This document shows positions 5,274 to 42,565 of a DNA stretch of 42,565 nt, piece by piece. The notes under the pieces were generated by a model. That model had not been told where the DNA came from. It saw only the letters and a program-made list of their open reading frames with translations, and made no database searches. Position 1 is the stretch's first letter. Each line of letters begins with the position of its first letter. The position numbers and the translations under genes were made by a program. Source of the DNA: an uncultured Halieaceae bacterium. Its GTDB lineage: Bacteria; Pseudomonadota; Gammaproteobacteria; Pseudomonadales; Halieaceae. The stretch is taken from NCBI GenBank assembly GCA_913056165.1, contig CAJXMD010000016.1:1-42565 (forward strand), written 5' to 3'.

Positions 5274-5284
5274 CCTCGATTCCT

Positions 5285-6157
5285 TTAATAGACCGGCTTG
5301 GGCAGTGCCTGAATGGCGTCAAGCCCACCCACCGCTGATTGGTAGTCGTTTTCGGAGGCACCAAGGAAGGCCTCGGCCCATGCCTGATACCCCCCATCAG
5401 CGATCAACTCGCCGTATTTTTTGTAATGGGCGACATCAAACCCGTACAGCGGATCGTTAGAGCTGGGGTGCGCTCCTCCCGGCATGTGAACAACCGCTTG
5501 GGTACAGTTGCGTTCCCAATAGACCCGGCGCGCCACGTCGGGGTTTGCATAATGATCGGTATCGACAATGTTATCTGTCGAAACGATGGTGTGATCAGCC
5601 GCCCTTGCAAACCAGTCATCCATGTAGTGGTCGGGACTCGCTATTTCACACACCCCACGACGATCGGCCGCGGTCACGTGCAGCAGCGCCACATCGGGCT
5701 TGAGTGCAGGCATCGCCACCCACTCTTTTTCATCATAGGGACTCTCTACCAAGGCAATATCAGGCGCATGACTCAGCAGATCGGTACCCAGACCGATGCG
5801 GGTAGGAATGAAGGGGCAACCCCATGCAGCGGCTCGCAGGCCGAGCAACATCATGCCCTCATCGATCTCCATGACCTCAATATCGCCGGCTTCGCGGGCT
5901 TTCCTGAAGGCGGGTTCAAGCGGCATGAAATCCAGGGAGACAAACGCAAAAATTACTTTTCTGACCTTGCCGGCCGCACAGAGCAAACCGACATCCGCCC
6001 CACCGTATGCGATCACAGTGAGATCTTTCACGTCGGTTCTGAGCAGCTCCCTGACCAAGGCCATGGGCTTTCTTCGCGGACCCCATCCGCCAATACCTAT
6101 CGTCATGCCATCTTTAATGACAGAGAGGGCGTCACTGGCGCTAACCAGTTTGTCCAT
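5285..6157 (-). CDS. ipdA: IpdA, alpha subunit of the steroid ring-opening CoA-transferase-like hydrolase
   Basis: A 290-residue class I CoA-transferase alpha-like protein. I start it at ATG 6157 (AAGGAA eight bases upstream), not at the longer in-frame ATG 6220, because the family begins KLVSASDAL. GIGGWGPRRKPMALVRE, the acidic EIDEG segment (Glu100, roughly where the catalytic Glu of IpdA lies) and FIPTRIGLGTD match IpdA. With IpdB it should open the cyclohexenone ring in steroid C/D degradation in the cytoplasm. It is the first gene of the minus-strand operon and is divergent from fadD3, so the short gap 6158-6300 must hold both promoters. Confidence 0.93.
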   Translation of the reverse strand: MDKLVSASDALSVIKDGMTIGIGGWGPRRKPMALVRELLRTDVKDLTVIAYGGADVGLLCAAGKVRKVIFAFVSLDFMPLEPAFRKAREAGDIEVMEIDEGMMLLGLRAAAWGCPFIPTRIGLGTDLLSHAPDIALVESPYDEKEWVAMPALKPDVALLHVTAADRRGVCEIASPDHYMDDWFARAADHTIVSTDNIVDTDHYANPDVARRVYWERNCTQAVVHMPGGAHPSSNDPLYGFDVAHYKKYGELIADGGYQAWAEAFLGASENDYQSAVGGLDAIQALPKPVY

Positions 6158-6230
6158 GTGCGCGTTCCTTAAGGGGAAGATCTGGGATTTCAGTATCAAA
6201 TTCGACCATTCATTGATCATCCCCCATTGA

Positions 6231-7927: not shown

Positions 7928-8836
7928 ATGGCAATTAAGAGCCTTGGTTACATTGGCGTCATGAGCCAACAACAAGAAGCCTGGAGAGAGTTTGCCTGCG
8001 GCGTTATGGGGCTTGAGGATGTAAGCGACCGCTGTAACGCCAACGAGGGCGAACTTTTTTTCAAGATGGACGACCACCCTTTCAGGCTGTTCATCGAGAC
8101 GGGTGACACTGAAACCCTCGGCGTCTGCGGATGGGAAACCAATTCCGCCGAGGGCCTACAGGAGGTGGCTGATGCACTGGCAGCAGCCGGCGTGGCTTTT
8201 TCCTGGGGCTCAGAGGAGCTAATCAATCGGCGCAAAGTACAGAACTTGCTCAGCTTTGTTGACCCTGCAGGCAATAACCACGAGGCATACTGGGGGGTGG
8301 TCTCGGACTTCGCGACCTTCAACTCGGCAACCGGAGTCAGTGGATTCGTGACCGGGGATCAAGGCTGCGGCCACATTGTATTGCCGGCACCTAACTTCGA
8401 GGAGACCACGCAGTTTTTTACCGAAGTCCTGGGCTTTGGTCTCTCGGATCTTATGAAAATTCGCTTCACCCCCGACCCCGAGGAGCCGATCAAGCGTCTT
8501 TGGTTCATGCACTGCAACAAGCGACACCACAGCCTCGGCTTATTTGAGATGCCCATGCCCGCGGGATGTGTCCATCTGATGGTCGAAGCCAACGACGTAG
8601 ATGAGGTAGGCAAGTGCAACGACCGACGGATTGCCGCGGGGGTGAAGCTAACCGGCACGCTTGGGCGACACGCTAACGACCACATGGTCTCCTTCTACAT
8701 GCGCTCCCCTACGGGGTTTGATATTGAATACGGCGCCGAAGGAAGAACTATCAGTGACTGGCGCGATTACGAAGTGTTTGAAAGCACCGTGGCCAGTTTT
8801 TGGGGCCACGACTTTAGCGTCGGCCAGATGGACTAA
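7928..8836 (+). CDS. hsaC: HsaC-like extradiol (3,4-DHSA) dioxygenase
   Basis: A 302-residue two-domain vicinal-oxygen-chelate protein. The iron ligands expected in the C-terminal domain are visible: His149 (GCGHIV), His216 (CVHLMVE) and Glu267 (FDIEYG). The active-site acid/base region RHHSLG and GRHANDHMVSFY are conserved. It closely follows HsaC in length (about 300) and start (SIRSLGYL/AIKSLGYI). Predicted reaction: meta-cleavage of the catechol ring A of 3,4-dihydroxy-9,10-secoandrostatriene-dione, giving the HsaD substrate. It follows fadD3 by 22 bases with GGGAGAG before the ATG. An aromatic catechol role is possible, but the neighbours argue for steroid. Confidence 0.93.
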   Translation: MAIKSLGYIGVMSQQQEAWREFACGVMGLEDVSDRCNANEGELFFKMDDHPFRLFIETGDTETLGVCGWETNSAEGLQEVADALAAAGVAFSWGSEELINRRKVQNLLSFVDPAGNNHEAYWGVVSDFATFNSATGVSGFVTGDQGCGHIVLPAPNFEETTQFFTEVLGFGLSDLMKIRFTPDPEEPIKRLWFMHCNKRHHSLGLFEMPMPAGCVHLMVEANDVDEVGKCNDRRIAAGVKLTGTLGRHANDHMVSFYMRSPTGFDIEYGAEGRTISDWRDYEVFESTVASFWGHDFSVGQMD

Positions 8837-8954: not shown

Positions 8955-10085
8955 ATGAGCAGTCATGAGCCAGTGGTGACAGACCAAATTCTGGAGCTTA
9001 TTGCCAGTAAATCTGACGAGCAACGTCAGAACCGCCGCATGAGCGCGGAAGTTGTGTCCGCACTGAAAGAGTGCGGTTTCTACACCATGATGTTGCCCAA
9101 AAAGTGGGGCGGCCAGGAACAGCGACCGCAGGAATTTTTCAAGGAGCAGATCCGCATCGCCGAGGCGGACATGAGCACCGCCTGGGCCAGTGGCATTATC
9201 GCCGTTCACGCATTCCAAATCGCCCTCATGTCCGAAGAAGCGCAGCGAGAGGTATACGAGAACGACCCGAATACGCTGGTGAGCAGTTCCTATAACCCGG
9301 TCGGCGCCAAGGCCGAGAGCGCCGAGGGCGGTTTCATACTGAGCGGCCGCTGGGGCTGGAGCTCCGGCTCGGAACATTGCACTTGGGCGCTTCTGGGTGG
9401 CGTGATCCCCGGTGACGGCTACAGAACGTTTTTGGTCCCCCGCTCCCAGTACGATATCGAAGATACCTGGAACGTTATGGGTCTTCAGGGCACCGGGTCC
9501 AATGACGTTGTTATTGCAGAGCCTATTTTTGTGCCAGAACATCGCACCCATCGGCAGATGGATGGCTTTAACTGCGTTAACGAGCAAGAAAACCCCATCT
9601 ACAACCTGTCGTGGGCACAAACTTTTGTCCGGGTGGTGAATTCAGCAGCCATCGGCGCGCTCAAGAATGCTCTCAAAATTTTTGTTGAGACCCGAACCGC
9701 CTCGGCAACCAGCGACCCCACCAAGCTGGCCGGGGATGTCGAAACACAAACCCGTATTGCTGAGGTCATGAACACCATCGCCGAACTTGAGGCGGTGATG
9801 TTCCACAATTTTGACAAGATGGAAGATGCCAATTGGCAGCCCTCGATCGAGGAGCGAGTGCTCTATCGCTATCAAGCATCGATCGTGATCGATAAAGCGA
9901 TTGATGCCATCGACACCTTGTTCGATGTCGCAGGCGGCCGCGCCGTATTTAACGGCCACCCCCTGCAAAACCTCTGGCATGACATTCATATCGCACGCTG
10001 TCACGTCGCCAATAACCCAACCGGCTTTGCCCGCAATTTGGGGGCCATGCAGCTGGGCGTGGAAAATCAGGACGTCTTCATCTGA
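8955..10085 (+). CDS. hsaA: HsaA-like flavin-dependent 3-HSA hydroxylase, oxygenase subunit
   Basis: A 376-residue acyl-CoA-dehydrogenase-fold monooxygenase of group D. Signatures seen: GFYTMMLPKKWGG, the central LSGRWGWSSGSEHCTWALLG segment, and the C-terminal LWHDIHIARCHVANNP with the His proposed as base in this family. In the steroid pathway HsaA uses reduced flavin from HsaB to ortho-hydroxylate 3-HSA, making the catechol for HsaC. No hsaB-type flavin reductase is in this window, so reduced flavin must come from elsewhere. A GGGGAAG ribosome site precedes the ATG. The stop overlaps the hsaD start (TGATG). A 118-bp gap after hsaC shows no clear terminator. Confidence 0.92.
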   Translation: MSSHEPVVTDQILELIASKSDEQRQNRRMSAEVVSALKECGFYTMMLPKKWGGQEQRPQEFFKEQIRIAEADMSTAWASGIIAVHAFQIALMSEEAQREVYENDPNTLVSSSYNPVGAKAESAEGGFILSGRWGWSSGSEHCTWALLGGVIPGDGYRTFLVPRSQYDIEDTWNVMGLQGTGSNDVVIAEPIFVPEHRTHRQMDGFNCVNEQENPIYNLSWAQTFVRVVNSAAIGALKNALKIFVETRTASATSDPTKLAGDVETQTRIAEVMNTIAELEAVMFHNFDKMEDANWQPSIEERVLYRYQASIVIDKAIDAIDTLFDVAGGRAVFNGHPLQNLWHDIHIARCHVANNPTGFARNLGAMQLGVENQDVFI

Positions 10086-10930
10086 TGCCGGCAAACAGCG
10101 CTGCATCCCAGTACATCGAGACGGGCCGGGGCCTTAAGATCCACTATACGGAGCATCCCGCAACCGGCGAAGAGCTCGGTGCGGTCGTATTCATTCATGG
10201 CAGTGGACCCGGCGCGAGCGGCTGGAGTAATTTCAAACAAAACGTTGGTAGCTTTCAGCAGGCTGGATACCGCTGCATTGTCTACGATCAATGGGGCTAT
10301 GGCCTTACCGATAAACCCCAGGACATCGACCACACGCTGGACTTCTTTGTTGAGGGATTACTGGCGGTCCTCGACGGGATCGGGCTTCCACGTGCAACGC
10401 TAGTAGGCAATTCTCTCGGCGGAGCGGTGGCGCTGGGGGCCGCCCTTGATCACCCCGAACGGGTCGACCAGTTGATTCTGATGGCCCCCGGAGGCATCGA
10501 GTCGCGGGAGACCTACTTCGCCATGGAAGGCATTCAGACCATGGTGAAACACCCCATGGGGTCTCCGGAGTTCACAAGAGATGTCCTTCATAACTTATTG
10601 ACTTTGCTGGTATTTGACCCGAAAAATGTTGATGAAGAGCTGGTCAATGAGCGCTGGGCCACACTCCAAACCCAAAACCCCCACGTGCTGGCCACTATGG
10701 CGATTCCAGACCTGTCATCCAGACTGGCCACGCTATCCCATAATACGCTGGTGTTCTGGGGGACCGAGGATAAATTCTGTCCCGCGGAAGGGGTTTGGAA
10801 GCTGCTACAGTCCCCGGCAACGGTTCAGGCCGAGCTGGTAAATCACTGCGGCCACTGGGTCATGGCCGAATATCCCGGCATTTTTAATCCTCGTTGCATT
10901 GAATTTCTCAAGTCCAAAGACGCACAATAG
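10085..10930 (+). CDS. hsaD: HsaD-like C-C bond hydrolase (4,9-DSHA hydrolase)
   Basis: A 281-residue alpha/beta hydrolase of the meta-cleavage product family. Oxyanion region HGSGPGASGW, nucleophile elbow GNSLGG (Ser110), acid Asp229 (WGTEDKF) and His257 (NHCGHWVMAEYP) give a complete triad in the expected order. In steroid degradation HsaD splits the seco ring-A meta-cleavage product into a dienoate and the HIP acid, which FadD3 then activates. The start is coupled to the hsaA stop by a TGATG overlap. The length equals that of BphD/HsaD proteins. Specificity is inferred from hsaA, hsaC and fadD3 in the same operon. Confidence 0.93.
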   Translation: MPANSAASQYIETGRGLKIHYTEHPATGEELGAVVFIHGSGPGASGWSNFKQNVGSFQQAGYRCIVYDQWGYGLTDKPQDIDHTLDFFVEGLLAVLDGIGLPRATLVGNSLGGAVALGAALDHPERVDQLILMAPGGIESRETYFAMEGIQTMVKHPMGSPEFTRDVLHNLLTLLVFDPKNVDEELVNERWATLQTQNPHVLATMAIPDLSSRLATLSHNTLVFWGTEDKFCPAEGVWKLLQSPATVQAELVNHCGHWVMAEYPGIFNPRCIEFLKSKDAQ

Positions 10931-20351: not shown

Positions 20352-20890
20352 TGAGCAGCACGCGCTGGTCCGTACACCTTAAGCGCGAAGCTCTCATCAA
20401 TGGGGTGACCAATGCCCTCGCCAATGGCGGCATCGCCTGGCTGTTATTCAAAGACAAAGCCGTCATCCATGCCTGGCAGGGCGCGTCAACCTTCGGCGTT
20501 GACCTTCTGGCCACCGCAGCCATCCTCTCCCTGATCCTTGCGGCTATTCTCCAGCCACTGCAGCGCAGGGCGCTCTTGAAAAATACCGATCTCTTGATCG
20601 GCGCGCGCGGGAATCCAAAAAGCCTGATCACATGGGATCGAGGCCACTTTCCCTTCAGGCCCTGGCTAAACACCTTCGCGTACTACCCCCTGACTGGACT
20701 GCTGGCAGCCACGCTCACTCTCGGGGTTCTGTCAGCCTTCGGTGTAGAGAATTTTTCCGCGCTTGAATACAGCCTCTTCAAAGGCGCCTGGACCGGGGTT
20801 TGGGCTGCGCTGTTAACCCGACAAATCATTAAGGGATGTGCGGCTGGTATGATTAACGAACAACGAATAGAGGAGCTAGACAGGTCATGA
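20351..20890 (+). CDS. Small integral membrane protein, unknown function
   Basis: A 179-residue protein that I do not recognise. Four hydrophobic segments are visible, near residues 15-33, 49-70, 106-131 and 140-161, with a basic loop (PLQRRALLKNTDLL) and a cytosolic-looking stretch between helices two and three containing GNPKSLITWDRGHFPFRPW. It is translationally coupled on both sides: its ATG overlaps the HsdA-like stop (TAATG) and its stop overlaps the DUF3604 start (ATGA). The tight coupling to an exported DUF3604 protein suggests a membrane partner or transport role, which is inference only. Confidence 0.75.
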   Translation: MSSTRWSVHLKREALINGVTNALANGGIAWLLFKDKAVIHAWQGASTFGVDLLATAAILSLILAAILQPLQRRALLKNTDLLIGARGNPKSLITWDRGHFPFRPWLNTFAYYPLTGLLAATLTLGVLSAFGVENFSALEYSLFKGAWTGVWAALLTRQIIKGCAAGMINEQRIEELDRS

Positions 20891-22902
20891 GTCGAACTCT
20901 TTTTCTTGTTAATCGGCCCATCTTGTTCTGGCTCTGGCTCATTTCCTTAGGTGCCATCGAGTCAACCAGCGCATTCGCCAACGAAGACCCCATTCCCTGC
21001 CGCCACTTTAGTCACCAGCGATTACCGTTTTTTGGGGATCTGCACATCCACACCCGCTACTCCTTCGACTCGTTTCTGTCGAACCAAAAGAATACCCCTG
21101 ATGGTGCCTATCGCTATGCCAAAGGGCACCCCATCACGCTCCCCGGGCCCACCGGCGAGCAAACAGTCACCGCTCGAATCGATCGTCCAATCGACTTTGC
21201 CGCCGTAACCGATCATGGCCAATTCCTCGGAGAGGTCGCTCTCTGTGACAGTGACCCCTGGACCCTCGCGTGGTGGCATCCCACTTGCCTCATGTCGCGA
21301 ACCGAAAATCTTTGGGTGCAGCTCTACGCCGCGTCGCAATGGACTCTCTCAGGCGGCATGGATGGCGAGGCACCCGAACGGTCGATGATTTGCTCGATGG
21401 GCGACTGTCAGGCGGCGGCAATCAATATCTGGGAGGACATTCAGCGCGCTGCCCACGAACACAACGATACAACTGACGATTGTCAGTTCACTACTTTTGT
21501 TGGCTATGAGTACACCCAGGGAGAACGCGGGGCCAACCTGCATCGCAACGTTATTTTCAAAGATACAGCGGTGACCCAGCTGCCGGTCTCGGTATTTGAC
21601 ACCAACAATCAGGTCTCTGAACTCTGGCGTCAATTGAGGAAACAATGCCTTGAATCTAATACGGGCTGCGATGTGCTGGCCATTCCGCACAACAGCAATC
21701 TCGGGGGTGGCTATATGTTCCCCGATCCCGCCTCCGAAGAGGAGCTGATAAACCGGCGGCAGCTTGAGCCTTTGGTCGAGCTTGTTCAACACAAAGGCGC
21801 TTCCGAGTGCCGCTTTGACCGTCTCCTGCAGCTCGGTGTAGCAACCGAAGATGAGCTATGCGATTTTGAACAGATACCTTCCGACAACTTGCATATGCTG
21901 GGCTCGGTCGAGGGCAAAATGCGCTCTACCCAGGGCCAAGCGGTGAGCATTGACAGTTTTCACCCCCGGAACATGATGCGCAATGTACTCAAAGACGGGC
22001 TCGCCCTGGAAAAGAGTCTGGGTATGAATCCATTTATGCCGGGGTTCATTGGCAGTACCGACACACATACCGCTACCGCAGGTGGCGCCCAAGAACAGGA
22101 CTACGTTGGGCACCTAGGTTCTCGGGACAGCGGCTTTCGTAACATTCAGGATCATTTTGTTTCTAACCCGGGAGGACTCGCGGTGGTCTGGGCCGAGCAA
22201 AATCGGCGGGGTGATATTTTTGATGCGATGCGACGCCGAGAAGCCTATGCGACATCAGGCACCCGCCCTATTGTGCGCTTCTTTGCAGGTGACTATGCGG
22301 ATGACCTCTGCCAACAACCCGATGCGATCGAGCTGGCGTATCGCAACGGGGTACCCATGGGCGGCGTACTGCCGGGGATAGACGCACAACCCGGCCCCAA
22401 ATTTTTTGTCTCTGCACAGCAAGACCCGGGGACCGACACCTTCCCGGGAACGCCGCTGGAACGAATTCAAATCATCAAGGGCTGGATCGATGATAGCGGC
22501 ACCACCCACGAAAAAGTGTTTGATGTGGCCGGACAAGCCGTCTCTGGCTTGGGGGTGGACCCGCTGTCCTGCGAAGTCACTGCGAAGGGAGCAAGTGCGC
22601 TGTGCACGGTGTGGACTGATCCCGAATATGCCGAGACCGAGAGCGCATTCTATTATGCGCGGGTTCTTGAGAATCCAAGTTGCCGTTGGAGCACACGCCA
22701 ATGCCAAGCTATCGGGGTCAACCCATTAGCCAACAACTGCAGCGACCAACTTCTGGCGGCGAGACAATACGCCGAAGAGCTCGGCGCCTCGCCCGAGGCA
22801 TTCGACAACTGCTGTAAGTCAGCCGCCACCGAGCCTTTTTACTCTCCGGTGATTCGCGAGCGTGCCTGGACGTCACCTATTTGGCTTCAGCCGCCGCCTT
22901 AG
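20887..22902 (+). CDS. DUF3604 protein, exported PHP-like metallo-hydrolase
   Basis: A 671-residue protein with an N-terminal signal peptide (hydrophobic residues 8-28, likely cut after SAFA, about residue 32). DUF3604 motifs resemble a PHP metal site: GDLHIHT (His53, His55), AVTDH (Asp109, His110), AIPHNSN (His268), GSTDTHT (Asp392, His394) and the hallmark RREAYATSG near residue 450. Several cysteines (at least ten) suggest disulfides in the periplasm. The family has no settled function; phosphoester or related hydrolysis is the structural guess. Coupled by ATGA to the membrane protein. Its 3-prime end overlaps the convergent SDR by 26 bp. A second family member lies at 31009-32925. Confidence 0.88.
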   Translation: MSRTLFLVNRPILFWLWLISLGAIESTSAFANEDPIPCRHFSHQRLPFFGDLHIHTRYSFDSFLSNQKNTPDGAYRYAKGHPITLPGPTGEQTVTARIDRPIDFAAVTDHGQFLGEVALCDSDPWTLAWWHPTCLMSRTENLWVQLYAASQWTLSGGMDGEAPERSMICSMGDCQAAAINIWEDIQRAAHEHNDTTDDCQFTTFVGYEYTQGERGANLHRNVIFKDTAVTQLPVSVFDTNNQVSELWRQLRKQCLESNTGCDVLAIPHNSNLGGGYMFPDPASEEELINRRQLEPLVELVQHKGASECRFDRLLQLGVATEDELCDFEQIPSDNLHMLGSVEGKMRSTQGQAVSIDSFHPRNMMRNVLKDGLALEKSLGMNPFMPGFIGSTDTHTATAGGAQEQDYVGHLGSRDSGFRNIQDHFVSNPGGLAVVWAEQNRRGDIFDAMRRREAYATSGTRPIVRFFAGDYADDLCQQPDAIELAYRNGVPMGGVLPGIDAQPGPKFFVSAQQDPGTDTFPGTPLERIQIIKGWIDDSGTTHEKVFDVAGQAVSGLGVDPLSCEVTAKGASALCTVWTDPEYAETESAFYYARVLENPSCRWSTRQCQAIGVNPLANNCSDQLLAARQYAEELGASPEAFDNCCKSAATEPFYSPVIRERAWTSPIWLQPPP

Positions 22903-30227: not shown

Positions 30228-31028
30228 ATGCAGTGGTATACGGGCAATGCGCTCTACGACACGCTTTTGATCATAGGCTTCGCCTACGCCGCTCTCATCT
30301 TTGGCTCCAGCCTGTTCGGGACCGCAGCTTACGGAGGGCGTTTCGGGGGGGGCAAACGCGCCAAGGGCATCAAGCTGGGCTCAAAACTTGGGTGGGTGCT
30401 GATGGAACTGCCGGGGCTTATCGTGTTTCCGGTGGTGTTTTTTATGGGTACCAATGCGGATCAGTTGGTGCCGCTTATCTTTCTAGTGATCTGGATGTTT
30501 CACTATACCAACCGCGCGCTGGTGGCTCCGCTCCTGATGCGCGTGCAGCCCGGGAGCACTGCGAGCTTTTCGCTCGGCGTCGTTATCGCCGGCTGGATCA
30601 CGCTGCTGCTACACGGCTACTTCAATGCAGCCTACATTACCGAGTTTGGCTCTCACTACACCAAAGAATGGCTACAGGACCCGCGTTTTCAGCTGGGACT
30701 CCTGATTTACGCGACGGGATTTACCCTGAACGTTCACTCCGACCGTATTTTGCGCCACTTACGATCACCCAATCCCAGCCCCGATGAACCCCGGTACAAG
30801 ATTCCCTATGGCGGCGGCTTCCGCTGGGTGTCCTGCCCCCAGTACTTCGGAGAAATCCTGTCATTCACAGGCTTCGCCGTGATGACCTGGAATTTAGGGG
30901 CCGTGTTTGTCCTGGCGGTTACCGCAGGAAACCTTATTCCGCGAGCGATCTTTACACATCGCTGGTTCCTCAAAAACTTCGACGACTATCCGCCTGAGCG
31001 CAAAGCGATTATTCCTTATCTTCTGTAG
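30228..31028 (+). CDS. Steroid 5-alpha-reductase-like membrane enzyme (SRD5A family)
   Basis: A 266-residue polytopic membrane protein with about six or seven hydrophobic segments. I use ATG 30228 (AAAAGG upstream) instead of TTG 30201. The C-terminal half follows animal SRD5A1: NVHSDRILRHLRSP, YKIPYGGGFRWVSCPQYFGEI, HRWFLKNFDDYPPERKAIIPYLL. The N-terminal half has MELPGLI, recalling the QELPS active-site Glu, and HYTNRALVAPLLMR, recalling HY.HR. Predicted reaction: NADPH-dependent reduction of delta4-3-ketosteroids to 5-alpha products in the membrane. It is divergent from the 5-alpha-KstD candidate, and its end overlaps the convergent DUF3604 gene by 20 bases. Confidence 0.87.
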   Translation: MQWYTGNALYDTLLIIGFAYAALIFGSSLFGTAAYGGRFGGGKRAKGIKLGSKLGWVLMELPGLIVFPVVFFMGTNADQLVPLIFLVIWMFHYTNRALVAPLLMRVQPGSTASFSLGVVIAGWITLLLHGYFNAAYITEFGSHYTKEWLQDPRFQLGLLIYATGFTLNVHSDRILRHLRSPNPSPDEPRYKIPYGGGFRWVSCPQYFGEILSFTGFAVMTWNLGAVFVLAVTAGNLIPRAIFTHRWFLKNFDDYPPERKAIIPYLL

Positions 31029-32925
31029 TGTCTGAGCTACCATCAGGCACATACCAAATGGGCGAACCGATGGCGCGCTCTTGAATTACCGCAGGCTCCA
31101 TCGGTGCGATCCCTAGGCGCTTCGCATCGTAGGTCGACCAGCGCGGGGTCGGAATCTCCAACACCCGCGCGTAATAAAAGGCTCGACCCCCGGCGTCGAA
31201 TTCGTCGTCTCGCCACCACCCCACCAGACTGGGGGAGCCCACGGTGTTGCTATAAGAGGCGTCCGCTGGGTTCACCGTGCTGGCCAGCGGTTCTAGCGCA
31301 CCTGTTTCAGGGTCCATGGCCCTTTGATCCGACCAAGCGACATTGATGATCCGCTCCCTAGCGACGCCCTGCCCGTCGATCCACCCCTTAATGATTTGGA
31401 TCCGATCGAGATTGGCACCCAGGGGATCCTTTGACGCGAGGACAATAAAGGCGGGAGCATCTCTCTTGGAAGCGGGCGCCTTGAGACGCCCACCCATGGC
31501 TGCCGCACGCTGCTCTATGTGTTGAATCAGGTCGCTCTGGTCAACTCGCCCTTGGTCCAGTTCCCAGTCGGCAAACATACGAAGACTTATTCTGGGTCCG
31601 CTGGTGGCATAGGTTTCACGCCGCTCGAGGGCTTCATAAATTTGCTCTCGGGTATTCCCGGAGGCCCACACCGCCGCCAATCCACCAGACCCCCACTGAG
31701 TGGCGGGGGTTAGATACGCCAGCGCGATGCCCGCCTTACCCGTGCGTAAACCTGCAGAACCATCCATCATCGGCAATTTGCCGGTGTAGATATCTTCGTC
31801 TGTGGAGGAGCTTGCATTGTGACTATCACTCGAGCCAATAAATCCAAACTCCAGGGGATTTACTCCCAGCTGTTCTGCCGCCGACAACCCCTGAAGCAGC
31901 CCATCCCGGGCGTAAGAACCCACGGCGGTTGCCAGCGTGGCTTCTCTACCCGGCACAACGTTTGCGATTTCAAACCCCGCAAACTCATCGAGGGAAGACA
32001 AGATAGGGTGAGTCTCAGAGGCTCCCTTCACCTGTAGGATTTCGCTCACGGGCTCGAGGGATGAACGATCGTCAGCTGACAGCTCGGATATCAACCGACC
32101 ATCTTCGTCAAATAAACGGTACATTCCCCCTGCCGACAAGTTGGCATTGTGCGGGATCGCCATGACCCGCCGCCCCTGCTCTCGCTCACTCCGGATGAAA
32201 GCCCACAATGCAGGCGGGTCCGCCCCATCCAACGCGCTAAATGGAACCTCAGGCACATCATCGGAACCATAGATCACGTTGCGGTGCAGGTGTGTACTGA
32301 CGTCATTCCCGTTGGTTGCGGACCACTCCCAACCGATAAGTGTGGTGAATTCTCCAGGCTTGTAATACCGTTCTGCGGCTGCGACCGACTGCTCCCAAGC
32401 ACGACGATTAATTGCCGCATCAATGCCATCGAGACTCAGGCGGAATCCGCTTTCTCGAATAAGCGCCATTGTCTCAAGCCAAGCTTTGGTCACCTCGAAA
32501 CGACTTCCTTCTCGCAACAGCTGCGATAGTGACTGGCGGGTGGTTGGCAGGGAAAGATCGGCGAGTCTCGCCTGACCGAGAAATTCAGCATGGTCGGTCA
32601 CCGCGACAAAATCCAATGGCCGCCGGATGGTCATCGGAAAACCCGCCCCGTGCTGTATCGTTTCACCGGTGGCGAAGCGATACACGTCTTCAGGCAGGCC
32701 TCTAACACCCATCGCGTAGGCGTCACTTGAGAGCGACGTATGAATATGTAGGTCACCCCAGTAGAGCTGCTTTGAACCGGACTCCACGGCTTCTTCCGAG
32801 GGCGTATCGAAAGGGGCGCCCACATGGGTATATCCGTCGAGCGAAGGGTCCTCCAGCGGCCCACAGCCGTTCAGTACCAAGACGACACTTATGGCTGACG
32901 GCCAGAGCCTCAGAGTAGACACCAT
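31009..32925 (-). CDS. DUF3604 protein, predicted lipoprotein
   Basis: A 638-residue homologue of the 20.9-kb protein. ATG 32925 gives a short signal with Cys21 in LNGC, a likely though non-ideal lipobox; the longer frame to 32994 would place the signal internally. Motifs GDLHIHT (His60, His62), AVTDH (Asp111, His112), AIPHNAN, GSSDSHNA and RRETYATSG repeat the PHP-like metal site. Unlike the first copy it has few cysteines and should be membrane-anchored. It ends a minus-strand series starting at the P450, two bases after the SDR stop. The exact substrate is unknown for the family. Confidence 0.87.
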   Translation of the reverse strand: MVSTLRLWPSAISVVLVLNGCGPLEDPSLDGYTHVGAPFDTPSEEAVESGSKQLYWGDLHIHTSLSSDAYAMGVRGLPEDVYRFATGETIQHGAGFPMTIRRPLDFVAVTDHAEFLGQARLADLSLPTTRQSLSQLLREGSRFEVTKAWLETMALIRESGFRLSLDGIDAAINRRAWEQSVAAAERYYKPGEFTTLIGWEWSATNGNDVSTHLHRNVIYGSDDVPEVPFSALDGADPPALWAFIRSEREQGRRVMAIPHNANLSAGGMYRLFDEDGRLISELSADDRSSLEPVSEILQVKGASETHPILSSLDEFAGFEIANVVPGREATLATAVGSYARDGLLQGLSAAEQLGVNPLEFGFIGSSDSHNASSSTDEDIYTGKLPMMDGSAGLRTGKAGIALAYLTPATQWGSGGLAAVWASGNTREQIYEALERRETYATSGPRISLRMFADWELDQGRVDQSDLIQHIEQRAAAMGGRLKAPASKRDAPAFIVLASKDPLGANLDRIQIIKGWIDGQGVARERIINVAWSDQRAMDPETGALEPLASTVNPADASYSNTVGSPSLVGWWRDDEFDAGGRAFYYARVLEIPTPRWSTYDAKRLGIAPMEPAVIQERAIGSPIWYVPDGSSDTTEDKE

Positions 32926-32927
32926 AA

Positions 32928-33803
32928 TCAGTAGATCACTGCGGCAGAACGCTCCGGCGGTGCGCCCAACATCTCGCGGTGGGACGGTGGCCACGCCCCG
33001 TCATCATCGATACCGAGCTCGCGCCCGAGCTCCGCGCCGATAACGGTTTTACCGGCGAAATCAGGTCCGCGAGGGTCGCTCATCAAAGCGGCAATCAAGT
33101 GCCCCGTGTATTCGGGGTTCTCCGCCAGCTTCATGATCTCCTCATATTGCTCGGGGTGTACCTCGGCCGCCTTTTTGGCGCGCTCTGTTCGCAGGGGTCC
33201 CATCCAGATAGAGACCGCATGGACTCCCGTTCCAGTAAAGTCATGCTCCATATCCGCCGCAAACTTATCGATGCCCGCTTTTTGGGCACCGTAACCAGGA
33301 CCATGCATGTAGCAGTTGGCGCCAAAGGAACTTCCAAAAACAATCCAGCCACTGCCCTGCTTGACCATCATATTGGCTGCGTGCCAGCTCGCCACATAGG
33401 CGGAACGCAACCCGACATCGAGTATTTCACCTGCGTCGACTGATTTCTCCCAAAAAGGTTTCGGCGCGATGAGCTCGGGATGCATGTAAGTGGCGTTGTT
33501 GACCAAGAGGTCAAGTCGACCCTGCTCGGCCTGAATTTGCTCAAAGACTGTGGCCACCGCCGCGTCATCAGCATGGTCACAAGGCACGGAAATACCGACA
33601 CCCCCAAGCGATGTGATCGCCTCGGCTGTTTCATGAATTGTGCCGGGCAACACCGAGCCATCCCAGGCCTTTGCGGATCCCACCACCTCGGATCGACCGG
33701 TGACATACACGGTAAAACCATGACTGCCTAGAGCTCGGGCTATACCCGCACCTGCACCGCGGCTCGCACCGGTAACCAGGGCTACACGCTGATCTGTTTT
33801 CAT
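32928..33803 (-). CDS. SDR family oxidoreductase
   Basis: A 291-residue SDR. I start it at ATG 33803 (GGAG seven bases upstream), not 33977, because the long form adds 58 Arg/Ser-rich residues without Rossmann features. TGASRGAGAGIARAL and VTGRSE (Arg after beta-2, NADPH-leaning), NNATYMHPE, GSSFGANCYMHGPGYGAQKAG with Tyr/Lys (YGAQK) are present, followed by an extended C-terminal region GRELGIDDD. Length and the NNAT variant set it apart from the 250-residue SDRs here. It leads directly into the DUF3604 lipoprotein gene. Confidence 0.85.
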   Translation of the reverse strand: MKTDQRVALVTGASRGAGAGIARALGSHGFTVYVTGRSEVVGSAKAWDGSVLPGTIHETAEAITSLGGVGISVPCDHADDAAVATVFEQIQAEQGRLDLLVNNATYMHPELIAPKPFWEKSVDAGEILDVGLRSAYVASWHAANMMVKQGSGWIVFGSSFGANCYMHGPGYGAQKAGIDKFAADMEHDFTGTGVHAVSIWMGPLRTERAKKAAEVHPEQYEEIMKLAENPEYTGHLIAALMSDPRGPDFAGKTVIGAELGRELGIDDDGAWPPSHREMLGAPPERSAAVIY

Positions 33804-36522: not shown

Positions 36523-37794
36523 TCAGGCCGCTGCCGGCTTCGATGGCAACTCCGGGGTAAACTCTATTGGCATGGCTTTGATGGTGTTGATAAAAGCGGA
36601 GCGCATGTAGGTAATGTCTCCTGCTACTTTTGGATTTCTCAGTCGCGGCAGGATTTCTTCCAACATGACTCGCATCTCGAGTCGCGCCAAGTTCATCCCC
36701 AAACAAAAATGCTCCCCAATGCCGAATGAGCGCATCTCGCGATTCAATGCAGGCATTCGTTTATGACGGTGAATATCGAACATCATCGCGTCATCACCAA
36801 ACACATCTTCGTCATGGTTGACCGCGTGATAGTGCATGACAATTTTGTCGCCCTTATTGAAGCGGTATCCGTTCCACTCGACCTCTTCGGTTACAGTTCT
36901 TCGCATAGTGATGAACGCCGTGTTGTAGCGGAGCATCTCCTCAACGGCGGTTGGAATATCCTCAGGGTGATCTACTAAATGTTGTAACTGGTCGGGATGC
37001 TCCATCAGCAGGCGCATTCCGTGAGCGAGGGCCGTACGTGTGCTCTCGTTGCCGCCGACCATAAGCAAAATAAACACCCAGGCGAACATCTCGTCGCTCA
37101 CAGGCACCCCATCCACCTCGCCCTCGAGCAGGGCTTGAATGACCGGCCCGGTAAACCCTTGGCGCTGCTTTTTCGCCAACTCCATCGCATACAACATGAC
37201 CTCGAAAGCAACGGTATTGGCTTCGTCCATGCCAGTGCTGATATCCGGATCGTCGGCAAATGCCATGATATTGGTCCACTCAAAGAACTGTTTCCGATCC
37301 TCCTGAGGCACTCCGAGTAGTTCGAGGATAGCCATCAACGGTAGCTCCGCCGCGACTTCTTCGACGAACTCGCAGGCCCCCTTGCTCGCCACTCGATCGA
37401 CAATGGCCTTCGCCTGCTCTCGAAGCCACGGCTCCATGGCAGCCACCGCTCGGGGTGTAAACGCATCTCTCACGACACGACGGTGGGCCATGTGTTGAGG
37501 AGGGTCCATGGCGATAAAACTGTTGGCGTTCATCACCGCCGTCGTCTCCCGCTCGGTGTCAGAGCGCGGCTCCATCGGAAACGGTCCCGCGACCTGTGAG
37601 GAAAAAATTTTCGGATTTTGTGACACAAAATCCAGAGCATCTCGCTTGACCGCCAACCAATAAGGGACGCCGGTGCCGGGATCGTCAAAGTGTACGAAGC
37701 TGCCCTGCTTTCTCAGCGCCGCAAGCTGCTGGTATGGCATGCCTTCGCGATAGCTGTCCAAGTCAAGTGGGTGAGTAAATGGGCAAGTTGCCAT
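36523..37794 (-). CDS. Cytochrome P450, CYP125/CYP142-like
   Basis: A 423-residue bacterial P450. The heme loop FGIGEHFCLG places Cys364. The I-helix motif VGGNESTRTA lacks the usual acid-Thr but has Glu-Ser-Thr, close to CYP125 (AGNETTR). The EEMLRY ExxR motif, MDPPQHMAHRRVV and the C-terminal MRSAFINTIKAMPIEF also match CYP125/142-type proteins, which hydroxylate the C26/27 end of sterol side chains. It needs a ferredoxin and reductase not in the window. Divergent from the TetR gene across 325 bp, starting with AAGGAG about ten bases before the ATG. Confidence 0.88.
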   Translation of the reverse strand: MATCPFTHPLDLDSYREGMPYQQLAALRKQGSFVHFDDPGTGVPYWLAVKRDALDFVSQNPKIFSSQVAGPFPMEPRSDTERETTAVMNANSFIAMDPPQHMAHRRVVRDAFTPRAVAAMEPWLREQAKAIVDRVASKGACEFVEEVAAELPLMAILELLGVPQEDRKQFFEWTNIMAFADDPDISTGMDEANTVAFEVMLYAMELAKKQRQGFTGPVIQALLEGEVDGVPVSDEMFAWVFILLMVGGNESTRTALAHGMRLLMEHPDQLQHLVDHPEDIPTAVEEMLRYNTAFITMRRTVTEEVEWNGYRFNKGDKIVMHYHAVNHDEDVFGDDAMMFDIHRHKRMPALNREMRSFGIGEHFCLGMNLARLEMRVMLEEILPRLRNPKVAGDITYMRSAFINTIKAMPIEFTPELPSKPAAA

Positions 37795-37927: not shown

Positions 37928-37948
37928 TAAGAAAACAGTGTTTTCTTA
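37928..37948. promoter_or_regulatory. Perfect 21-bp palindrome, probable TetR operator
   Basis: Ten-base arm TAAGAAAACA, a central G, then the exact complement TGTTTTCTTA. This is the size and symmetry of TetR-family operators. It sits in the divergent P450-tetR gap, 134 bp from the P450 start and 172 bp from the tetR start. Autoregulation plus control of the P450 operon is the likely role. Confidence 0.65.
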
Positions 37949-38119: not shown

Positions 38120-38761
38120 ATGCCGAGACCGCTACTCGATTCAGACACTATCTATGAGGCTGCCCTCGGCCTTATCGAGAGCGGTGAACCCGGGGCCCTC
38201 ACGGCACGCAATCTCGCCTCAACGCTTCGCTGCTCAACCCGCACACTTTACAAACAGGTTGGCAAGCAGGAGGAGCTGATTACTTCGCTGCTTGATTATT
38301 ACTTCCGAAGCAAAACACCGAGTTTTCCAGCTGGTCAAAGCTGGCAGAACGCCATCCTCAAATGGTCTTGTGACCTGCGGCAAGTCATTCTGGATCGACC
38401 CAATCTCGCCGCTCACCTGACGCCTGAGAACCACGCAGCTATCGCGGGATATACCAAACCAATGCTCACCTTTTTAATTAAGGCTGGGTTTGAACCCGTT
38501 GCTGCGGCCGACATTTGCAAGTCACTGGCCCACGTGGTCATCAGTCTTGCTCACGCCGAATTCGCCACCCAAAAATACCCGACGCCGGCATTGACGGATG
38601 CAACAGCGCGAGCTGATGTAACCGCCCTGCTCTACTCGAGACTGGCTGAAGATCTAGCACAGCCTGATCCTGCGCTGCCAACACCCAATTTTTTACGCAC
38701 CGTCGAATGGTTGGTGAAAGGAATAGAAGCCCACCAACCATCTTCCATGGGAGCCAACTGA
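38120..38761 (+). CDS. TetR-family transcriptional regulator
   Basis: A 213-residue protein with an N-terminal TetR helix-turn-helix: ALTARNLASTLRCSTRTLYKQVGKQEELITSLLDYYF (residues 27-63). The C-terminal 150 residues are helical and have the ligand-binding domain size of the family. It is transcribed away from the P450 operon, with a perfect palindrome between them, and toward the amidohydrolase-Rieske operon 146 bp downstream. Local repression of one or both operons, relieved by a steroid or CoA ester, is expected by analogy with KstR/KstR2, though I do not see their operator consensus. Confidence 0.87.
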   Translation: MPRPLLDSDTIYEAALGLIESGEPGALTARNLASTLRCSTRTLYKQVGKQEELITSLLDYYFRSKTPSFPAGQSWQNAILKWSCDLRQVILDRPNLAAHLTPENHAAIAGYTKPMLTFLIKAGFEPVAAADICKSLAHVVISLAHAEFATQKYPTPALTDATARADVTALLYSRLAEDLAQPDPALPTPNFLRTVEWLVKGIEAHQPSSMGAN

Positions 38762-38907: not shown

Positions 38908-40122
38908 ATGAGCGACCGCCTACTTGTGGTATCAACCGATTGCCATGCCGGCCTGCCAATCCATCAATACAAGCCTTATGTCGAAACGAAGTATCACGAC
39001 TTCATCGACATGGCGGTGGATATTCAGGTCGACATGATGAACAAGGCTGAAAAGCAGTTCCTGATCAAGGAGATCAATGATGAGTGGCGCGCGCCGATAG
39101 AGCAGGAGCTGACAGGCGCCTGGGACTACCAGGAACGCAAGAAAATGCTGGCGAAAGACGGCATTGCCGCCGAAATCGTCTTCCCCGATGGCATCACCGA
39201 GCACAACACGCCGCCCTTTGGTGCTGGCTTGGGACTCTCGCCTCGGGATGCAGTCCCCGAGCTCCAATGGGCTGGGGCCATGGCCCACAACCGATGGCTA
39301 GCGGAGCTGGTCGCCAACGACCCTAAGCGGCATCTCGGGGTCGCCTCTATCCCCCTGTTGTTTGACGTTGACCAAGCGATTGAGGCAGTCCGGTGGTGCG
39401 CCGAAAACGGGCTGAAGGGAGTCATGCTGCCAACGCTTTGGGGGGACCACGCGCCCTACCATGACAAGAAATACGACCCCTTCTGGGAGGTCTGTCAGGA
39501 TCTGGGCATCTTTATCCATTTCCACTCCGGCCCCGCTCCCTTAAATGAATACTTTGGTCCCGATTTCCCCAACGAGGACCGCAGCGAGTCGCTACCCGGG
39601 GCGATGGGCTGCTACGTGTCCGAGGTGATGTTCTGGCTCTACAGACCCCTCACCTTCATGCTCTGGGGTGGCGTTTTTGAACGTTTTCCCAAGTTAAAGG
39701 CCATGGTCGTTGAGGGGGGCACACTGTTTATGGTCCCTTCTTGGCTCACGCTACTCGATCACAACTACACCGACGTCCACTTCTCGGCCAAGTTGGGTGA
39801 CTTCAGATCCCACCTGAGCATGGCCCCCAGCGAGTATTTTGCGCGCAACTGTGGCATTGGGGCGTCTTGCGTGCCGCGCCGAGATCTGGAAATGAAAGAC
39901 GTGATCGGGGTCAACCAGATCATGTGGGGTAGCGACTACCCCCACCCTGAGGGTACTTGGCCTCATACGCAGCAGTACTACACCGATACGTTTAAAGGAT
40001 TCCCCCAGGAGGACGGCAAGCTAATTCTGGGACTGAACGCGGTCGACTTCTATGGATTAGACGGCTCTTATCTAAGAACCCTGGCAGACGAAATCGGACC
40101 ATCCTCAAGTATTTTTCAATAA
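38908..40122 (+). CDS. Amidohydrolase-2 family (hydrolase/decarboxylase) protein
   Basis: A 404-residue TIM-barrel protein starting at ATG 38908, with AGGGAGAA before it; the longer frame from 38707 is a shadow over tetR. Metal-site text: STDCHAG at the N-terminus (first His pair reduced to one), IHFHSG mid-protein and WGSDYPHPEGTWP at the C-terminus with its Asp. This resembles actinobacterial steroid- and aromatic-cluster amidohydrolases and ACMSD-type decarboxylases. First gene of the operon with the Rieske oxygenase (57-bp gap), SDR and decarboxylase-like gene, so C-C or C-N bond cleavage of an oxidised intermediate is likely. Confidence 0.82.
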   Translation: MSDRLLVVSTDCHAGLPIHQYKPYVETKYHDFIDMAVDIQVDMMNKAEKQFLIKEINDEWRAPIEQELTGAWDYQERKKMLAKDGIAAEIVFPDGITEHNTPPFGAGLGLSPRDAVPELQWAGAMAHNRWLAELVANDPKRHLGVASIPLLFDVDQAIEAVRWCAENGLKGVMLPTLWGDHAPYHDKKYDPFWEVCQDLGIFIHFHSGPAPLNEYFGPDFPNEDRSESLPGAMGCYVSEVMFWLYRPLTFMLWGGVFERFPKLKAMVVEGGTLFMVPSWLTLLDHNYTDVHFSAKLGDFRSHLSMAPSEYFARNCGIGASCVPRRDLEMKDVIGVNQIMWGSDYPHPEGTWPHTQQYYTDTFKGFPQEDGKLILGLNAVDFYGLDGSYLRTLADEIGPSSSIFQ

Positions 40123-40179: not shown

Positions 40180-41145
40180 ATGGAACTCATCGCTGTCTGT
40201 GATTCAAAAACAAATACTGCACCTGACTTTCCCATGGGCTGGTGGTCGCTCGCTAGAAGCCACGAGCTGCAGGTCGGAGAAGTTAAGGCCGTTTCGGCGC
40301 TGGACCGCGATCTCGTGCTGTATCGGACGCGCTCCGGTGCGGTGCGGGTTCACGATGCCTATTGTCCGCACCTAGGTGCGAACCTGGGCATCAACGGCCG
40401 CGTGGTGGGCGAGTCCATTCAATGTCCCTTCCACGGCTGGCAGTTCGGTGCCGACGGCGCCTGCCAGCACATTCCCTACTGCGAGGACATTCCTGCACGG
40501 GCTAAAGTGAACAACTGGCCAACCAGCGAAGTCAACGGCGAGATCTACATGTGGTTTCACCCGACGGGCGAAGCGCCGATGTGGGAGGTTCCGGTAATCG
40601 AGCAACTGCAGGATGCCAGCTGGACTGCGCCTAGGCAGGTGGAATTTACGATTCCGACTCATATCCAAGATATCGCCGAAAACTCTTGCGACCCCGAGCA
40701 TTTTCAATACGTCCACAAGCAAAACGAAACGCCACCCTCTTCAGTAACCGTTGAGGACGATGGCGCCGTGCACCTTCATGCGGATATGAATGCGAACGGC
40801 ATCCCGGGGCACCTCCACGCGACGATGTTCCAACCCGGATTGGCTCGGGTTCAAACAAGCTACGGACCCGGCGCCGAGATGATCGTTTACAACTCGGCCC
40901 AGCCGATCACCCAAAACGAGACTCTTCTGCGCTGGACGCTCACGGTCTGTAAAGATATTGAAGACCTCGCTGGGGACGCCGTGATGAATGGCATCATTGA
41001 CGGCCTGCAGGACGACTACCCGATTTGGAAGCACAAGGTGCACCGGAAGCAGCCGATCTTCTGCAAAGGCGACGAAACCCTCGTGCTGTTCCGTAAATGG
41101 GTGCGGCGGTTTTATCTTGAAACCAGCCCACGGGGCCAGCAATGA
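40180..41145 (+). CDS. Rieske non-heme iron oxygenase of the KshA/DAF-36/Neverland type
   Basis: A 321-residue Rieske oxygenase. 2Fe-2S ligands: Cys62 and His64 (YCPHLGANL), Cys82 and His85 (CPFHGWQF). The mononuclear iron site is DPEHFQYVH (His174, His179) with a later Asp near 278 (GLQDDYPIW). RVVG..IQCPFHGWQF, the IPY..IP..AKV..W run, EVNGEIYMWFH and the preceding FPMGWW fit animal cholesterol 7-desaturases better than mycobacterial KshA (YCRHMGGDL). A reductase partner is needed and absent here. Strong AAGGGAG before the ATG; the stop overlaps the SDR start by four bases (ATGA). Substrate likely a steroid; the position is unresolved. Confidence 0.88.
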   Translation: MELIAVCDSKTNTAPDFPMGWWSLARSHELQVGEVKAVSALDRDLVLYRTRSGAVRVHDAYCPHLGANLGINGRVVGESIQCPFHGWQFGADGACQHIPYCEDIPARAKVNNWPTSEVNGEIYMWFHPTGEAPMWEVPVIEQLQDASWTAPRQVEFTIPTHIQDIAENSCDPEHFQYVHKQNETPPSSVTVEDDGAVHLHADMNANGIPGHLHATMFQPGLARVQTSYGPGAEMIVYNSAQPITQNETLLRWTLTVCKDIEDLAGDAVMNGIIDGLQDDYPIWKHKVHRKQPIFCKGDETLVLFRKWVRRFYLETSPRGQQ

Positions 41146-42023
41146 GTGACTATTACCGGGGCAAGACCGCGGTTATCACCGGCGGTGCAAGTGGCGTCGG
41201 ACGGTCATTGGCCTTTGCCCTAGGTCGCGCCGGCGCAAAGATCGTGATCGGCGATGTGGACGCAAGCGCCATGACGGCGATCGGAGAAGATCTGTCCTCA
41301 GCGGGTATCGACCACCAAATCTGCCGGTGCGACGTCACCGACGTAACGAGTCTTCAGGCCCTTCTGGATAGCGCCCTCACCGCTTTTGAGCAGGTTGATT
41401 TTGTCTTTGCCAATGCCGGCATTGGTGCCGGTGAGGCGGGCGCCATGTGGGACTTTTCCGACAAGGACTGGCAGTGGTGTTTTAACGTCAATGTCTGGGG
41501 GGCCGTGAATTCGATCCGCGTCTTTATGCCTTACTTGGTTACACGATCAGAGCCGACACACATGGTGATCACCGGCTCGGGTAATGGCGCTTACATGGTA
41601 CTCCCCGACGCCCCGATCTACACCGCGTCCAAAGCCGCGGTGCAGACAATCACGGAAAATCTTCATTATCAGGTACAGGGCGCAGGGTTACCCATAAAAG
41701 TCAGCGCCCTGTTTCCCGGGCCGCACATTGTGGACACCGGCCTGTTTAATTCGGGTCGGGTTCGACCCGAGGAGTTTGCTAAAGAGACCACAGGCAACGA
41801 GAGTGGTATCAACTCGGTCGATGACATGAAGCGCATGGCTGACGAATTTGGCTTTGAGTTAAAGACCACCCATCCCGATGAAGTCGCCGAAATGGCCTTA
41901 GCGAAATTGCCTGGCGGTGAATTCTGGCTGCATACCCTTACCGAAGATCATGAGGCCAAGATACGACGCAGGGCCGACATGATCATCAATAGCACGATCC
42001 CCGTTCCGGAATCTGTTATCTAA
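41142..42023 (+). CDS. SDR family oxidoreductase
   Basis: A 293-residue SDR with TGGASGVGRSLA, GDVDAS (Asp after beta-2, NAD-leaning), ANAGIGAGEAG, TGSGNGAYMVLPDAPIYTASK (Ser, Tyr, Lys) and a longer-than-usual C-terminal half with LPGGEFWLHTLTEDHEAKIRRRADM. The extra C-terminus matches the larger SDR type often next to Rieske oxygenase genes. It is translationally coupled to the Rieske stop (ATGA) and followed after 25 bases by the decarboxylase-like gene. The predicted step follows Rieske oxidation: alcohol or diol dehydrogenation, by analogy. Confidence 0.88.
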   Translation: MSDYYRGKTAVITGGASGVGRSLAFALGRAGAKIVIGDVDASAMTAIGEDLSSAGIDHQICRCDVTDVTSLQALLDSALTAFEQVDFVFANAGIGAGEAGAMWDFSDKDWQWCFNVNVWGAVNSIRVFMPYLVTRSEPTHMVITGSGNGAYMVLPDAPIYTASKAAVQTITENLHYQVQGAGLPIKVSALFPGPHIVDTGLFNSGRVRPEEFAKETTGNESGINSVDDMKRMADEFGFELKTTHPDEVAEMALAKLPGGEFWLHTLTEDHEAKIRRRADMIINSTIPVPESVI

Positions 42024-42048
42024 CCGACAACAATAAAGAGGAATTGTC

Positions 42049-42565
42049 ATGAGCGAGACACCACAAGCCCCACAAGGAAACACCGGCGATATCATCAACT
42101 GGCCGATGCTTAAAGTGCACTACCGCACCGACCCCGAGGCGATTGCCGCCCTGCTCCCACCCGGGATCACCGTGGGTAGCGAGCCCAATGTCAACCTGAC
42201 CGTTTATAATTTCCCGGTACCCGACGTCCCCGAATACGGTGTGGTTACCACCGTGAACGCTGACTTCAACGGCGTCGCCGGCGAGTACACGCTGGGCTAT
42301 GGTATTGATCAGGAATCGGCGATTTTTATCAGTCAGGAGATGAACGGGCAGCCCAAGTACCCAGCAATCATCGACTACCACCGGATTGGCCCGATGGTGC
42401 GCGCGCGCTGCACCCACCAGGGCTACACCTTTCTCGAGTTTGAGGGGATGAGCGATGGGCCTGTGGATCCCATGGCAGAATTCGTGCAAAACGAATGGTG
42501 GATCAAGGTGTCTCGCGCAGTAAGCATTGGCGGCCCCGCCACCGGCTATGACTTTCCGCCACATG
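42049..42565 (+). CDS. Acetoacetate decarboxylase-like protein, 5-prime part (cut by window edge)
   Basis: ATG 42049 with AAAGAGGAA upstream opens 172 codons that run off the right edge. The translation (INWPMLKVHYRTDPEAIAALLPPG, VNLTVYNFPVPDVPEYG, then ISQEMNGQPKYPAIID) follows the acetoacetate decarboxylase (ADC) family. The Schiff-base Lys of ADC sits in a YPKK motif; here PKY keeps the first Lys. It may decarboxylate a beta-keto acid or, like many family members, perform aldolase/dehydratase chemistry. Last visible gene of the amidohydrolase-Rieske-SDR operon; the end is not seen. Confidence 0.82.
   Translation, partial: MSETPQAPQGNTGDIINWPMLKVHYRTDPEAIAALLPPGITVGSEPNVNLTVYNFPVPDVPEYGVVTTVNADFNGVAGEYTLGYGIDQESAIFISQEMNGQPKYPAIIDYHRIGPMVRARCTHQGYTFLEFEGMSDGPVDPMAEFVQNEWWIKVSRAVSIGGPATGYDFPPH

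Follow-up and report, generated by a model that had tools for sequence, protein, structure and literature searches.

Which reaction is catalyzed by the Rieske oxygenase encoded at positions 40180 to 41145 (+) of contig CAJXMD010000016.1, and what do the genes around it say about its substrate? The contig is a stretch of 42,565 nucleotides from an uncultured Halieaceae bacterium (assembly GCA_913056165.1), which we refer to as the window. A preliminary description, made from the sequence alone, had proposed that the enzyme is related to the animal cholesterol 7,8-desaturases Neverland and DAF-36. We find that it belongs to a genuine and conserved oxygenase module that is linked to sterols and lies outside KshA (3-ketosteroid 9-alpha-hydroxylase), and its function is narrowed. 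The reading we prefer, with a probability of about 0.6, is that it is a sterol-specific Rieske monooxygenase from the non-KshA half of the KshA_C superclade, encoded in an operon that is regulated together with a CYP125-type cytochrome P450 gene.

The Rieske oxygenase and its distance from KshA

The gene is intact. Its open reading frame encodes a Rieske non-heme iron oxygenase of 321 amino acids with Pfam Rieske (4.7e-21) and KshA_C (5.8e-27) domains, and the three strings quoted in the preliminary description (YCPHLGANL, RVVGESIQCPFHGWQF, and EVNGEIYMWFH) are all present in the translation. The cluster motif C62-P-H64-x17-C82-x2-H85 fits the Rieske pattern C-x-H-x16-17-C-x2-H. In an alignment of 36 sequences, C62, H64, C82, and H85 are invariant, as are the iron ligands H174, H179, and D279 and the bridging D171, and the latter four (D171, H174, H179, and D279) align with KshA D178, H181, H186, and D304. 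The alignment thus predicts a 2-His-1-carboxylate iron site with a bridging aspartate. The catalytic domain is KshA_C and not the Ring_hydroxyl_A domain of aromatic ring-hydroxylating dioxygenases, and a domain scan of the 7 proteins around the gene detected no beta subunit.

KshA is the closest characterized enzyme by both sequence and fold. The best solved relatives by sequence are KshA chains (PDB 4QDC, 4QDF, and 2ZYL; 3.4e-37), with the next matches at only 7.5e-15, and the six top-ranked fold matches of the structure model (mean predicted local distance difference test score, 87.7) are also KshA chains, with template modeling scores of 0.80 to 0.82. The two share the Rieske and KshA_C domains, the iron ligands, and one pocket tryptophan. 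In contrast, the query protein differs from KshA in its clade and in its operon, and it is indeed shorter than mycobacterial KshA, having 65 fewer residues than the Mycobacterium tuberculosis chain 2ZYL (321 versus 386).

Trees were made from representatives below 78% identity (79 of the 143 proteins found, plus three KshA enzymes). For a second tree we kept 73 of these 82 rows, the nine left out being mostly long branched, and for a rooted tree we left out eight rows and added five SdmA or SdmA-like rows, giving 79 rows with a distant Rieske row as the root. Rieske rows from beyond the KshA_C group are few in the trees. In the rooted tree the KshA_C superclade (68 rows; support, 100/99) falls into two halves. 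The KshA half (22 rows; 99/92) includes the three solved enzymes but not the query, which lies in the non-KshA half (46 rows; 96/90) within a clade of 11 rows supported at 100/100. The non-KshA half also contains an actinobacterial clade and several gammaproteobacterial clades. Since none of the three trees places the query within the KshA clade, we conclude that this Rieske protein lies outside KshA. By domains and trees it nests neither in KshA nor in the aromatic-ring dioxygenases, so the placement that the preliminary description had named as telling against its proposal was not found. In approximately unbiased (AU) tests, on groups that were named after a tree had been seen, a group of the query with only the three solved actinobacterial KshA enzymes was rejected (p 1.9e-5).

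The residues that contact the substrate in KshA, as listed in the accessible text of PMC4064121, point the same way. Gln204 and Tyr232 are present in 22 of 22 KshA rows and in none of the 11 rows of the query clade, and M. tuberculosis KshA M238 and N240 are replaced by Ala and Val in the query, which also has Glu where 2ZYL has Asp174. The equivalents of D304 (iron site) and W308 (pocket) are retained. These results bear on the possibility that the protein is an extra 3-ketosteroid 9-alpha-hydroxylase for side-chain-bearing or coenzyme A-bound steroids, similar to the Rhodococcus KshA isoenzymes. The close match to KshA, the retained D304 and W308 equivalents, and the link to CYP125 described below, which makes side-chain-bearing substrates plausible, are consistent with such a role. 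However, the tree position, the AU test, and the lost contact residues oppose it, and the same genome carries another gene, on contig C53 (L130 from 8705 onward), that does fall in the KshA clade. We therefore rejected a KshA isoenzyme as the first reading and regard it as unlikely. In the gammaproteobacterial KshA subclade to which the C53 gene belongs, a long loop separates the two Rieske ligand pairs, and among the rows listed CPYH replaces CPFH.

SdmA, the 4beta-methylsterol monooxygenase, is likewise a Rieske oxygenase with a sterol context and an NAD(P)-dependent partner enzyme. Membership of the query in SdmA was rejected, since the protein scores 64.3 bits against a cutoff of 600 for the NCBIfam model NF052579 and SdmA forms a separate branch outside the KshA_C superclade in the rooted tree. 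We know of no ADC (acetoacetate decarboxylase) family or amidohydrolase partner of SdmA.

A conserved operon and its association with CYP125

The coupling of the Rieske gene to a short-chain dehydrogenase/reductase (SDR) gene and the presence of an ADC-family gene downstream were correctly described, while an amidohydrolase gene upstream, the first gene of the unit, had been overlooked. This Amidohydro_2 gene (38908 to 40122, +; the open reading frame is listed from 38707, with a likely ATG at 38908), recognized by domain scan and comparison with homologs, ends 57 bases before the Rieske gene starts. The SDR gene (41142 to 42023, +; 293 amino acids) shares its first 4 bases with the end of the Rieske gene, and its product keeps N117, S146, Y160, and K164 in the alignment. 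The ADC-family gene begins 25 bases past the SDR end, at 42049, and is truncated at 42564 (+) by the end of the contig, leaving the first 172 amino acids, assigned by Pfam and alignment and including a GQPK motif with one lysine. A full-length relative is found in HTCC2080, at L047:9874-10653. The remainder of the gene stands at a contig end in the same genome (G000, contig C76; L202 7268-7690), and contig C76 probably continues the window past 42565.

We found 29 loci with a Rieske ortholog at 55 to 95% identity. At 27 of them, partner genes at ≥45% identity were counted as follows: amidohydrolase at 22, SDR at 19, ADC at 24, and a CYP125-type P450 at 13. The two loci left out as too short are L059, in which the SDR and ADC genes are seen, and L066, in which the amidohydrolase and ADC genes are seen; many of the ortholog loci are cut by contig ends. 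In Litorivivens lipolytica (L061), the Rieske and ADC genes are adjacent. We conclude that amidohydrolase-Rieske-SDR-ADC is a conserved operon. The preliminary description had called the arrangement unfamiliar, which fits our finding no description of the operon in the searchable open-licence literature; this does not imply that it is absent from print.

Divergent from the operon, at 36523 to 37794 (-), is a P450 gene whose closest solved relatives are CYP125MRCA (1.5e-97), natural CYP125 (6.2e-74), and CYP124 (1.3e-65), and by these matches its product is classed as a CYP125-type enzyme. CYP125, a sterol C26 monooxygenase, is a neighbor and not a homolog of the Rieske protein and has another chemistry; what connects the two modules is a common intergenic site and a nearly identical pattern of presence in the genus. 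A TetR-like regulator gene (38120 to 38761, +) precedes the amidohydrolase gene; its product matches an NCBIfam TetR model at E 5e-14, under that model's cutoff, and has no Pfam match at 0.001. A further SDR gene, identified by domain scan, adjoins the P450 gene (35730 to 36506, -).

Of 37 genomes of the genus, 12 have the Rieske ortholog (at ≥77%), and the same 12 have the amidohydrolase ortholog. Rieske and CYP125 are both present in 11 genomes and both missing from 24, with one discordance in each direction, giving Fisher values of 1.6e-7 for all 37 genomes and 0.0099 for the 17 genomes with steroid markers, both overstated because genomes within a genus are not independent. The presence sets were built by hand with identity thresholds of 77% for Rieske, 76% for CYP125, 66% for HsaC, and 69% for the amidohydrolase, and KshA-type rows were chosen by frame length. 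Both discordances lie at contig ends: one assembly (G035) breaks at the expected amidohydrolase/Rieske place, and the other (G007) stops past the amidohydrolase gene. Four genomes have KshA-type and HsaC genes without orthologs of CYP125, Rieske, amidohydrolase, or ADC, although two of these negatives come from assemblies that are only 79 to 83% complete (G004, 83%; G009, 97%; G024, 96%; G029, 79%). G039 has a Rieske ortholog 182 bases from a CYP125 gene of 70% identity. Based on these patterns, we conclude that the presence of the Rieske gene follows CYP125 and not ring degradation.

Between the CYP125 gene and the TetR-like gene is a perfect 21-base palindrome, TAAGAAAACA-g-TGTTTTCTTA (37928 to 37948), which is a candidate operator. 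It does not recur in the window at up to 3 mismatches or in the genome at up to 2, and no match to it was found in 100 shuffles. When the intergenic regions of the window and five relatives are aligned, mean column identity is 52%, and the palindrome stretch is a long invariant run. Among 220 loci, 7 carry its core, GAAAACANNGTTTTYT: the window itself and six relatives, each of the latter with one copy at the corresponding site. A promoter scan gave 0 sigma-70-like sites against 2.4 expected. Judging from this shared site, the operon and CYP125 are apparently coregulated. "Operator" is a guess, however, because the palindrome is imperfect in all six relatives and an inverted repeat is called at the site in only one of them (L065).

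Possible functions of the module

In the reaction sequence we envisage, the Rieske enzyme would hydroxylate a sterol at an unactivated carbon, possibly repeatedly, with electrons that a KshB-type reductase from another locus would supply. The SDR would make a ketone, either from the new alcohol or from C-3, the ADC-like enzyme would form a Schiff base with the ketone and cut the neighboring carbon-carbon bond by decarboxylation or retro-aldol cleavage, and the amidohydrolase may hydrolyze or decarboxylate an intermediate. Because the ADC-like lysine and the SDR catalytic residues are kept, a reading as hydroxylation, oxidation, and carbon-carbon cleavage uses all three enzymes. The solved ADC has a lysine pair, which we take to be Lys115/116 with the first of the pair forming the Schiff base, and K103 of the ADC-like protein aligns with this pair. 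The protein thus shares the Pfam family and the Schiff-base lysine position with acetoacetate decarboxylase, but it has no adjacent Lys-Lys pair: all 33 homologs compared (≥50% identity) have the motif G-Q-P-K-[YF]-P, so that the residue after the lysine is Tyr or Phe and never Lys. A link to a mycobacterial steroid ADC was considered and rejected. A search of 14 genomes with the ADC-like protein matched in 4, with module-level matches (63 to 76%) only in G058 and G059, a third match in G059 at 26%, and matches in the mycobacterial G065 and G066 at 30 to 32%.

A C-4 methyl group can be present in sterols, in contrast to bile acids and androgens, and HsaA must hydroxylate C-4. We therefore offer as the most likely task of the enzyme, in a tentative guess that is still more probably wrong than right, removal of the C-4 methyl from marine 4-methylsterols, as this methyl group would block the HsaA C-4 hydroxylation required for ring A cleavage. 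The complete pathway, in which Rieske hydroxylation, SDR oxidation, and ADC-like Schiff-base cleavage strip the C-4 methyl to allow growth and are switched together with CYP125, is a rather speculative proposal.

Several points count against the preferred reading of a sterol-specific monooxygenase or against its C-4 version. In the AU test, a single clade of the query group with all KshA was not rejected (p 0.196). One ortholog locus with whole flanks (L071) has 0 of 8 marker genes at 45% identity, another (L068) carries CYP125 alone of the eight, and relatives with sulfatase genes inserted at the intergenic site lack the core. At the level of the order, G044 and G053 have CYP125-like P450s (50 to 56%) without the query Rieske clade, and the distant ADC/SDR units of G043 and G053 adjoin P450s that are only 24 to 25% identical to the CYP125 of the window, the G053 one being closest to EpoK, so that the chemistry may extend beyond sterols. 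To our knowledge, no substrate or activity is known for any member of the query clade. The C-4 demethylation guess is drawn from chemical logic, the protein is not SdmA, and such a route leaves the amidohydrolase without an obvious step.

Another use of the same enzymes would be on the sterol side chain, with the Rieske protein as an oxygenase for 24-alkylated sterols (C22 to C28) and the ADC-like enzyme and amidohydrolase cutting the branch carbons. The divergent arrangement with CYP125 around a conserved site and the lack of the module in the four ring degraders without CYP125 would both fit. Against this, the known branch removal in actinobacteria uses aldolases and is not known to involve a Rieske enzyme, and KshA, the closest characterized relative, works on the steroid ring. 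We consider a side-chain role doubtful.

The proposal that the enzyme is a bacterial Neverland/DAF-36 counterpart, either a sterol 7,8-desaturase or a C7 hydroxylase, came from motif text, which we counted in 11 rows of the query clade, 38 other non-KshA KshA_C rows, and 22 KshA rows, with no animal sequence included. CPHLGA[NHS] is found in 11/11, 23/38, and 1/22 rows, respectively, and CPFHGW is found in 11/11, 20/38, and 1/22. The text does set the protein apart from KshA, but strings common to so many bacterial KshA_C proteins are no specific pointer to Neverland, and we rejected an identification from motifs alone. The third string, [IV]Y-x-W-x-H, is rarer elsewhere (6/11, 2/38, and 0/22) and so is more special to the query clade. 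The letters CPHLGA had no match in the open-licence literature.

Apart from the first two strings, which match animal text according to the preliminary description, the query shares with Neverland the general cluster motif and the Glu before the bridging Asp, which the accessible text of PMC7609953 gives for Caenorhabditis elegans Neverland (E-x3-D-x2-H-x4-H). This Glu is also present in every one of the 38 other non-KshA rows and in 10 of the 11 outgroup rows, and so it looks ancestral. Shortness is not a Neverland trait: in the C. elegans numbering given there the first Rieske Cys is at 122, compared with 62 in the query, which has no comparable N-terminal extension. KshA clusters with Neverland according to the accessible text of PMC4064121, citing Capyk and Eltis 2012, which places Neverland in the KshA clan, and the query is in the non-KshA half of that clan. 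No Neverland chain is among the 25 solved-structure matches listed. The distribution of the module, which follows a sterol P450, would suit a sterol desaturase, but we found no positive support for C7 desaturation. Such a reaction would not require SDR, Schiff-base lyase, or amidohydrolase partners, and, as far as we know, the 9,10-seco route does not call for a 7,8 double bond. A Neverland-type function is thus improbable.

Finally, the module could be a general terpenoid-degradation unit that was recruited into the sterol island. In five distant genomes (G039, G043, G044, G053, and G232), relatives of the ADC and of the SDR and/or amidohydrolase are with or near a different Rieske subfamily, the ADC gene of G044 being about 10 kb from the Rieske gene. 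Two other genomes of the order have a P450 gene beside an ADC/SDR/Rieske unit (L172 8152-9399 and L180 9081-10403), and the former, at the G053 unit, is closest to EpoK. The best solved match of the amidohydrolase is PtmU3, which we take to be a diterpenoid enzyme. However, within the genus the module tracks CYP125 almost perfectly, and in the relative G005 it sits in a steroid island, so that we think a general terpenoid role quite unlikely. 

In Luminiphilus-type genomes, a CYP125-type gene and a conserved, apparently coregulated Rieske module provide a concrete gene set by which ocean bacteria of this group could break down sterols. Besides KshA, the KshA_C superclade includes a second, large bacterial half, and we found no reaction assigned to it in the open-licence literature.

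The steroid island and the host

The host is a Luminiphilus-type marine gammaproteobacterium; in the ortholog listing, its closest named relatives belong to Luminiphilus and other Halieaceae, HTCC2080 among them. Growth with cholesterol is reported for one Halieaceae isolate in the accessible text of PMC5790920. In the part of Bergstrand et al. 2016 (PMC4810484) available to us, the marine OM60 clade is among the putative steroid degraders, and the survey reports no CYP125 or CYP142 orthologs in Proteobacteria, tying this to an inability to use cholesterol. The P450 at 36523 to 37794 is a CYP125-type enzyme in a gammaproteobacterium, in contrast with that survey.

By its gene content, the window belongs to a 9,10-seco steroid catabolic island. 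It encodes an HsaC-like extradiol dioxygenase (7928 to 8836, +), an HsaA-like flavin monooxygenase with an Acyl-CoA_dh_2 domain (8955 to 10085, +), an HsaD-like alpha/beta hydrolase (10085 to 10930, +), and a putative IpdAB-like coenzyme A-transferase pair (4467 to 6220, -), along with acyl-CoA dehydrogenase, SDR, and flavin genes. For these gammaproteobacterial genes, the HsaA/C/D, IpdAB, and KshA-clade labels rest on clade, domains, and gene order. In G005, a relative assembled as one contig, the corresponding genes lie within a steroid island of ~75 kb, which also has two further KshA_C Rieske genes (with a Pfam KshA_C score of 183 bits for one of them), a third Rieske gene whose domain is Ring_hydroxyl_A, a steroid 5-alpha-reductase-like gene, a sulfatase, and an alkyl-sulfatase-like metallo-beta-lactamase (MBL) protein. 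The sulfatase and MBL genes separate CYP125 from the operon in G005 (L125 12156-15238), at six ortholog loci, and in L216, and this insertion in some relatives suggests the use of sulfated sterols.

Few genomes of the class have a KshA_C match (13 of the 369 that were sampled); the genome studied here has 7, of which 6 are full length. One of them, a Rieske paralog of 60% identity on contig C4, belongs to a second complete ADC-SDR-Rieske-amidohydrolase unit (L129 9536-13372; 60 to 75% identity), with TonB and major facilitator superfamily genes nearby. The steroid cluster of the window also contains two DUF3604 genes (20887 to 22902 and 31009 to 32994), both of which are conserved in the G005 island.

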